From contig JACPYL010000027.1 in NCBI GenBank assembly GCA_016196065.1, positions 1-64,000 on the forward strand: a DNA stretch of 64,000 nucleotides, written 5' to 3'. A program made the translations under genes and the position numbers. The notes under the pieces were generated by a model. That model saw nothing but the letters and a program-made list of their open reading frames with translations, searched no databases and was not told the origin of the DNA. This DNA comes from Acidobacteriota bacterium. GTDB taxonomy: Bacteria; Acidobacteriota; Terriglobia; Terriglobales; Acidobacteriaceae. Shown piece by piece: positions 3,875 through 61,176 of the stretch (within the stretch, counting starts at the first letter, position 1; every line of letters starts with the position of its first letter).

Positions 3875-3992
<118 letters not shown>

Positions 3993-3998
3993 TAAATA

Positions 3999-4034
3999 AA
4001 GGCCGATCATGAAAATGGTCGGCCTTTTCCTTTT
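3999..4034 (+). terminator. Intrinsic terminator of the rRNA operon
   Basis: AAGGCCGATCAT and its inverse ATGGTCGGCCTT form a 12-bp stem (one G-T pair) with a short A-rich loop, followed by TTTTCCTTTT. It sits immediately after 5S rRNA. Confidence 0.93.
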
Positions 4035-4170: not shown

Positions 4171-4199
4171 TGTGTGTGGGAGAGTAGGTCATTGCCCAT
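4171..4199 (+). pseudogene. Remnant of a second 5S rRNA gene (3' end only)
   Basis: TGTGTGGGAGAGTAGGTC followed by ATTGCC and ATAAATAAAGG repeats the last bases of the 5S gene and the start of its downstream flank, but nothing of the 5' part of 5S is present. It abuts the right end of repeat element A copy 1, which suggests that a tandem 5S copy was lost or overwritten when the element arrived. Confidence 0.7.
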
Positions 4200-4203
4200 A
4201 AAT

Positions 4204-4242
4204 AAAGGTCACGTTTGAGAAATCAGCGTGACCTATTGCTTT
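4204..4242 (+). terminator. Second intrinsic terminator after the 5S remnant
   Basis: GGTCACG and CGTGACC form a 7-bp stem (4207-4213 with 4227-4233), followed by TATTGCTTT. It lies where the first terminator lies relative to the intact 5S gene, supporting duplication of the 5S-terminator unit. Confidence 0.7.
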
Positions 4243-4320: not shown

Positions 4321-4776
4321 ATGAAAATCGCAGAAGCGTTGGCGCTCCGCGCCGACCTCCAAAGGCGCTTGGAGCAGTTGAAGCAGCGTCTGGTCAAGAA
4401 CGCGCGCATTCAGGAAGGCGACAAGCCGGAGGAAGATCCGGCGGAACTCCAGTCTGAGCTGGAAAGGTTGGCGAAAGAATTGACGGTACTGATTCAGCGC
4501 ATTAACCGGACGAATGCAGCGTCGCGATTCGGGGACGGAACGCTGGCGGACGCGCTGGCGGAACGCGATGTCCTGAAGATCCGATACAACACATATCGAG
4601 AGCTTGCGACCGCGGCCTCAACCAGTCAAAGCCGTACTACACGTTCCGAAGTGAAGTACGTCAGCACGGTGAGCGTCGCGGCCACACAGCGGAAGGCAGA
4701 TGATCTTGCCAAGCAGTATCGTGAACTCGACACGCGCATACAAGAAGCAGATTGGTTGACCGTTTTGTTGGACTAG
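4321..4776 (+). CDS. DIP1984 family protein (septicolysin-like)
   Basis: A 151-aa, highly charged, almost entirely alpha-helical protein of the DIP1984/septicolysin-like family. N-terminal helices (residues 1-65) carry heptad leucines (LALRADLQRRLEQLKQRL). The family signature follows, INRTNAASRF at about 61-70 and then AERDVLKIRYN. No signal peptide or membrane segment, so it is cytoplasmic. The start is ATG behind a GGAAAGGAA ribosome site. The biochemical function of the family is not settled, and members are described as coiled-coil proteins. The stop codon lies inside the D-stem of the tRNA-like RNA annotated at 4762, so gene and RNA overlap by 15 nt and are probably expressed together. 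Confidence 0.85.
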   Translation: MKIAEALALRADLQRRLEQLKQRLVKNARIQEGDKPEEDPAELQSELERLAKELTVLIQRINRTNAASRFGDGTLADALAERDVLKIRYNTYRELATAASTSQSRTTRSEVKYVSTVSVAATQRKADDLAKQYRELDTRIQEADWLTVLLD

Positions 4777-4886
4777 GGCGAGAAGGTAGTCGGCGACACG
4801 AGAAGTGAGCACAACCCTCCGGCGGGGCAATGCCGACTCGGGTAGTGCGAGGGCAAGCACTAGTCGGTTCGATTCCGACCAGAACA
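4762..4886 (+). ncRNA. Candidate tRNA-like structured RNA overlapping the DIP1984 gene
   Basis: The segment can be drawn as an enlarged cloverleaf. Acceptor-like stem GTTTTG (4762-4767) pairs with CAGAAC (4880-4885). D-like arm GACTA/TAGTC (4771-4775, 4787-4791) has a G-rich 11-nt loop. A central arm CGGC/GCCG (4791-4794, 4832-4835) encloses a CCC/GGG hairpin. A long variable-type arm TAGTGC/GCACTA is at 4843-4862. A perfect T-arm GTCGG-TTCGATT-CCGAC is at 4863-4879, whose loop fits the tRNA consensus TTCRANY. No normal 7-nt anticodon loop and no encoded CCA are visible, so it is not an ordinary tRNA. The D- and central stems compete for one base, and an alternative pairing AGTCGGC/GCCGACT (4788-4794, 4832-4838) is stronger. 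The T-arm is sure, the rest is inferred. Confidence 0.6.
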
Positions 4887-5027
4887 GCGTATGCCCAGCA
4901 AGGCGCACAAATGCACGGCGTATTGTAACCGTGTACGACCATGTGCTGGTCTCGTAGCGTCGGTGAGGGTGGGGAAGGGGCACTCGTTCTAGTCGACCTA
5001 CTTCCGTTTGTGATGAGGACTGGGCAT

Positions 5028-31005: not shown

Positions 31006-31035
31006 TCCCAGCCGCGAGGCGGCGAAACAGGAAAG

Positions 31036-31057
31036 CCCGGCACGGAAGTGCCGGGTA
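31036..31057 (-). terminator. Weak intrinsic terminator after the sigma-like gene
   Basis: CCCGGCAC-GGAA-GTGCCGGG is a perfect 8-bp stem. On the minus strand it is followed by CTTTCCTGTTT, a broken T-run. It lies about 50 bp after the stop of the sigma-like gene. Confidence 0.55.
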
Positions 31058-44640: not shown

Positions 44641-44689
44641 CGGGTGCACGCAAACATTTTGCGGCGTCCGACATGTTCCAGCCGCGAAG

Positions 44690-44765
44690 CGGCGCAAGAT
44701 TACAGCCCACGGCGTAAGCCGTGGGTAACGCGAGACAAGCGGCAGCCCCGAAGGGGCGAAAGAGA
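44690..44765. repeat. Triple stem-loop repeat
   Basis: Three small palindromes in a row: CCGCGAAGCGG, CCCACGGCGTAAGCCGTGGG and GCCCCGAAGGGGC. Dispersed-repeat type, lying between the convergent M3 and amidase genes. Confidence 0.65.
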
Positions 44766-60764: not shown

Positions 60765-60799
60765 ACCATTCTCCTTTACACGCGAAAGGGTTTCTTGGT

Positions 60800-60985
60800 G
60801 ATGGTTCACGCCGGTCTCCTGGCTTGCGAGTAAGGACCTTTCAGTCCGTCTTCTGCGTGCGTCCTTCCCAGGCCTTCGATATTCGAAGATGGTTCCCAGT
60901 GGACGTCCGCTGTGTCCTCGCTTACAGTTGCGCGGCAGCGCGGGATTTACACCCGCTTCCCTCGTAAATTCGGCATGACGCCTGC
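60800..60985 (-). promoter_or_regulatory. Cobalamin (adenosylcobalamin) riboswitch
   Basis: Minus-strand leader of the btuB gene. Read 5' to 3' it has GGGAAGCGGGTGTAAATCCC, GCAACTGTAAGC, then GTCCACTGGGAAC, CTGGGAAGG and the B12 box AAGCCAGGAGACCGGC (60811-60826). These are the conserved elements of the cobalamin riboswitch in the right order. It sits just upstream of the ribosome site, so ligand binding should shut off receptor synthesis. Confidence 0.95.
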
Positions 60986-61176
60986 TTACGATGTGGCGCG
61001 AACCCAATATTGGAAAGAGCAAACTACCTCCGCAAATCTACCGGGAGCACCTGCGCAAGTCAAACGCCCGCGTGGCGAGAAGCAAAATCAAGTCGGAGAT
61101 TGAGATTTGGAAAAAGGACTTGAAGGAGAAACAGGTGATGTGGACCCAATGCAAACTTCGAGGGCTGCAGACGTTC

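Follow-up and report, generated by a model that had tools for sequence, protein, structure and literature searches.

A conserved RNA with two pseudoknots behind DIP1984-family genes, and its possible role when tRNAs are damaged

Nearly all relatives of DIP1984, a widespread protein family to which, to our knowledge, no function has been assigned, carry the same structured RNA 3' of the stop codon of their gene. We describe it chiefly from the window, by which we mean the whole stretch of 64,000 nucleotides analysed here (contig JACPYL010000027.1 of an Acidobacteriota bacterium), where the RNA occupies about 4781-4980 of the forward strand. An earlier note on this DNA had reported a tRNA-like RNA at 4762-4886; a structured element does lie there, but its extent was wrong, and the true one is about 200 nt. 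The gene just upstream (4321-4776, forward strand) had been assigned to the DIP1984 family (DUF6847), and correctly so: its 151-aa product scores 181.4 bits against PF20935 (E 1.1e-53; curated cut-off 27 bits) and 185.1 bits against NF038048 (E 8.2e-55; curated cut-off 70 bits). AlphaFold predicts a four-helix bundle for it with pLDDT 92, and fold comparison returned a single structural neighbour, 3kdq, which is itself a member of the family.

How far is the element conserved? A covariance model of the RNA, R1, built from 29 sequences, finds one copy in its own genome (4769-4980; 167 bits, E 1.7e-46) and matches 60 of 62 DIP1984 loci, 32 of them held out of the model and scored at E-values from about 1e-46 to 1e-8. 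The positive phyla include Acidobacteriota, Chloroflexota, Cyanobacteriota, Actinomycetota, Planctomycetota and Bacillota, among others. Both findings that the earlier note had made decisive, conservation beside other DIP1984 genes and covariation of the stems, were thus obtained. One of the two loci that R1 misses, L057, has motifs resembling those of the RNA; the other, a divergent form 3' of an Acinetobacter plasmid "septicolysin" gene (L062, 4384-4640), still has a P2 helix recognisable by eye. Matches at E of about 1e-4 (L109-L112, L117 and L118) have no DIP1984 gene near and were left out of the counts.

Searching the window and 20 loci against Rfam 15 at curated thresholds gave no match to the RNA, and a lax search of the site gave nothing of weight; the low-scoring matches that it returned (Sphinx_1, sX8, TLS-PK6, beta_tmRNA) were put down to chance or to the T-arm only. 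The window does hold two Acido-Lenti-1 RNAs (31010-31055 and 44680-44725, reverse strand) and a cobalamin riboswitch (60792-61016, reverse strand). We also considered by eye whether the 3' domain, with its codon-like GTN repeats, might code for protein, and rejected this because several members contain stop codons in frame and indels whose length is not a multiple of three.

The fold

The structure was assessed on an alignment of 91 sequences, with an effective number of about 69 at 80% identity. In its six helices, 92.7% of cells are paired against 32-40% (about 35%) in slid controls, and 789 cells carry double changes against 216 in shuffles, figures biased somewhat in favour of the structure, the alignment having been fitted to it. 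When all column pairs are ranked by mutual information, places 1 to 27 are pairs of the model, and helices P1 and P2 were already visible in the first-round ranking, made from a plain MAFFT alignment before there was a model. Two pseudoknots that the model lacked also surface in the mutual-information ranking and pass controls of their own. Folding 4762-4900 as a single sequence gave no signal (z = -0.27); the evidence for the fold is comparative.

Read from 5' to 3', the RNA opens with AGNNGGTA, passes through a long helix and a pseudoknot to a hairpin with a G-loop and, usually, a T-arm, and closes with a conserved 3' domain followed by GAGGGNGGGNNNGGGG. The first of these, a single strand resembling a tRNA D-loop, reads AGAAGGTA in the window (4781-4788), just 3' of the stop codon; GGTA is kept in 88 of 91 members and the full consensus in 64. 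P1 pairs 4789-4792 with 4961-4964 (93.7% of cells paired, double changes in all four pairs). P2, whose 5' strand spans 4798-4812, shows the strongest covariation of the alignment: P2a joins 4798-4803 to 4950-4955 (94.4% paired) and P2b joins 4808-4812 to 4943-4947 (99.6%), with an extra pair between 4806 and 4948. The 3' strands of P2 and P1, supported by the same covariation, lie within 4943-4964, and beyond them stands the G-rich and near-universal 3' end (4965-4980; 86 of 91 members).

Within this enclosure, PK1 (4815-4835) is an H-type pseudoknot made of S1 (4815-4817 with 4825-4827; 85.2% paired, with double changes) and S2 (4820-4823 with 4832-4835; 82.5% paired). Hairpin H3 follows at 4843-4862, its loop GAGGGCAA at 4849-4856, and next to it are the T-arm (4863-4879) and the 3' domain (4880-4942), in which the alignments show the motifs ACA, GCCCAG, GTNACA and CTACC. 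The second pseudoknot, PK2 (4851-4896), pairs GGGC of the H3 loop (4851-4854) with GCCC at 4893-4896. It is 94.9% paired, and its four-nucleotide complementarity holds in 66 of 87 sequences, whereas 2000 partner swaps gave 45 +/- 3 and never more than 56. A rival helix, P4 (ATGCCC/GGGTA), was dropped in its favour, since the compensatory changes sit in PK2.

Gene and RNA, together and apart

Does the RNA belong to the gene, or the gene to the RNA? Searches with the RNA model only, in 292 Cyanobacteriota, 396 Acidobacteriota, 331 Chloroflexota and 326 Actinomycetota genomes, a few of them sources of model sequences, gave 42 loci that were checked, and an intact DIP1984 gene stands just upstream in 38. 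Elsewhere the two have come apart. Three orphan RNAs (L152, L157, L160) have no DIP1984 gene, and in one of these, L160, the RNA is preceded by a sigma70-like promoter (10/12 match, 0.1 expected); in L141 an intact RNA follows a C-terminal remnant of the gene; and in L071 and L072 the gene is kept while the RNA behind it (about 1920-2180) is truncated or decayed.

These cases bear on an alternative in which the RNA would be a 3' UTR element working in cis on how stable the DIP1984 mRNA is or how well it is translated, perhaps by binding DIP1984 itself (autoregulation) or a tRNA. Such an element would be expected where we find the RNA, which in most loci begins at or directly after the stop codon, and in the window we saw no separate promoter for it. 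The orphans, one with a promoter-like site of its own, and the intact RNA behind a gene fragment argue the other way, however, as does a structural complexity beyond that of usual 3' UTR elements, and we regard cis control as unlikely. With three RNAs found on their own and another behind the remains of a gene, action in trans is probable. That gene and RNA are inherited as a pair, that the fold is kept and that orphans exist all point to a trans-acting RNA with a protein partner.

Likeness to tRNA and genomic company

How much of a tRNA is it? The perfect T-arm first seen at 4863-4879 (GTCGG-TTCGATT-CCGAC, its loop fitting TTCRANY) is real: 0.0005 are expected by chance per 125 nt, and where present it is 92.5% paired. 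The proposed 6-bp variable-type arm, TAGTGC/GCACTA at 4843-4848 and 4857-4862, survives as H3, five pairs of which are in the model and covary, at 95.2% paired. The anticodon loop and CCA that had been reported missing are indeed absent, and neither ARAGORN nor Rfam calls a tRNA at the site. The remaining resemblances fare worse. A D-stem that would include the stop codon gains no support from comparison, the D-loop-like strand forming no local stem, and in place of the acceptor-like pairing the closing helices join 4789-4812 to 4943-4964, beyond the interval first reported. The label "tRNA-like" fits in part: the RNA has a T-arm but no D-stem, acceptor stem or anticodon arm; no cloverleaf of the RF00005 kind was found, and P1, P2, the two pseudoknots and the G-rich 3' end have no counterpart in tRNA. 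Even the T-arm, in its strict form, is present in 50 of 91 members and missing in 41, so that it is, as far as the alignment can tell, dispensable, and mimicry of tRNA probably accounts for only part of the function.

The same count weighs on the proposal that the RNA is a decoy, binding tRNA-cleaving nucleases or tRNA-modifying enzymes through the T-arm and the D-loop-like strand. Many members do have a perfect T-arm and AGNNGGTA, and some sit in tRNA-array neighbourhoods, but the members without a strict T-arm keep the remaining fold and there is no anticodon stem-loop to be cleaved; we think a decoy quite improbable.

The neighbours are suggestive in a minority of loci. L119, from an Acidobacteriota genome, reads RtcR, Ro60 with vWA, an uncharacterised protein, DIP1984, the RNA, a second uncharacterised protein, YrlA-like RNAs, RtcB, a third uncharacterised protein, Band_7 and RtcA. 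L121 has 20 tRNAs, an RNA ligase with tRNA_bind, DIP1984, the RNA and RtcB; L120 an array of at least 20 tRNAs plus RtcB; L005 a TROVE gene. An rsr-yrl-rtcBA cluster is thus present in L119, in part in L120, L121 and L005, and not in the window. Other units lie in or beside tRNA arrays (L009/L136, L025/L132, L034, L061, L113), and profile comparison matches the VWA proteins of L019, L025 and L123 to Ro60 at 95% probability, from small alignments. The link to RNA repair and SPFH/Band-7 modules that the earlier note mentioned is independently supported by one locus, L119, and by others adjoining RtcB, RNA ligase or tRNA arrays, but most loci, the window included, have no repair gene near: only 3 of 45 genomes have RtcB within 2 kb, and 4 of 59 loci have four or more tRNAs close by (a raw locus count). 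Co-occurrence of RtcB or Band_7 genome-wide is uninformative, because control genomes also carry them. The unit of the window lies directly downstream of a ribosomal RNA operon, and between the two (4172-4208) the 3' end of the 5S rRNA with its flank (3964-4002) recurs as a copy of 37-39 nt at 92% identity.

Burroughs and Aravind reportedly described, in 2016, a tRNA-like molecule associated with SPFH/Band-7 modules and linked to RNA-repair genes. Band_7 and RtcB lie near the RNA in L119, and ours may be that molecule in fuller anatomy; the covariance model, both pseudoknots and the counts of pairing come from the present analysis. YrlA (RF02553) is another relative in kind, a non-coding RNA beside a protein partner, Ro60/Rsr, in rsr-rtcBA operons, with a closing stem and tRNA-like T-arm and D-loop features (PMC8394870). 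Our RNA differs in its neighbouring protein, its length of about 200 nt and its two pseudoknots; RF02553 does not match it in the window or in L119, and the YrlA-like RNAs are separate genes in L119 and lie elsewhere in the window's own genome. That genome has a TROVE gene, a YrlA-like Y RNA and RtcB on another contig (C25, about 321400-326700; L122 5434-10716), the Y RNA scoring 47 bits, under the curated 69, and called tRNA-Ser by ARAGORN. With tmRNA our RNA shares a T-arm plus pseudoknots but not a CCA acceptor end; at the site beta_tmRNA reaches 12 bits, on the T-arm segment, of the 84 needed, and ARAGORN finds no tmRNA. In the Anabaena trn operon and TrcR regulon, tRNA arrays come together with rtcB and slipin when translation is under stress (PMC10272220), company similar to that of our loci, although DIP1984 and the RNA are not named there.

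A mobile pair and its likely work

A genome scan found 59 relatives of the DIP1984 protein across many phyla. The protein is present in 5 of 61 genomes covered by the search of relatives and in 1 of 24 from its own genus, a sporadic distribution that suggests horizontal transfer. Plasmids carry the unit as a small gene plus RNA. We looked for a phage origin and rejected it: an IMG/VR protein scan and a phage DNA search returned no relatives, and there were only three low-identity Acinetobacter matches. A toxin-antitoxin or plasmid-maintenance pair of protein and RNA, which would suit this distribution and the plasmid modules of Acinetobacter (where record titles name the gene septicolysin), is very improbable given that DIP1984 has no toxin or nuclease fold, that PADLOC and PHROGs gave no match, and that orphan RNAs survive, as do genes with decayed RNA.

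We lean, with some reserve, towards gene and trailing RNA as one mobile two-part unit whose particle acts in trans when tRNAs are damaged or in short supply. The RNA would be made as part of the gene's transcript or, in orphan copies, from a promoter belonging to the RNA, and would fold into a compact core, closed by P1 and P2 and with two pseudoknots, to which the helical-bundle protein would bind. It is the company of repair genes and tRNA arrays that suggests that protein and RNA cooperate when tRNAs are damaged, and the particle may work beside RtcB, Ro60 and its Y RNA, slipin and emergency tRNA arrays. Its likeliest part there would be that of a scaffold for recognising fragments of tRNA or the enzymes that handle tRNA. 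A more specific proposal, that a trans-acting RNA of a hitherto uncatalogued class, with its two pseudoknots, forms a dedicated ribonucleoprotein with DIP1984, and that this particle recognises broken tRNAs or guides their repair, we put forward tentatively. The structural model, tested here and absent from Rfam 15, opens the way to direct binding, mutational and expression tests and, if our reading is true, the DIP1984 family would acquire both a conserved partner RNA and a role in how cells cope with damaged tRNAs.
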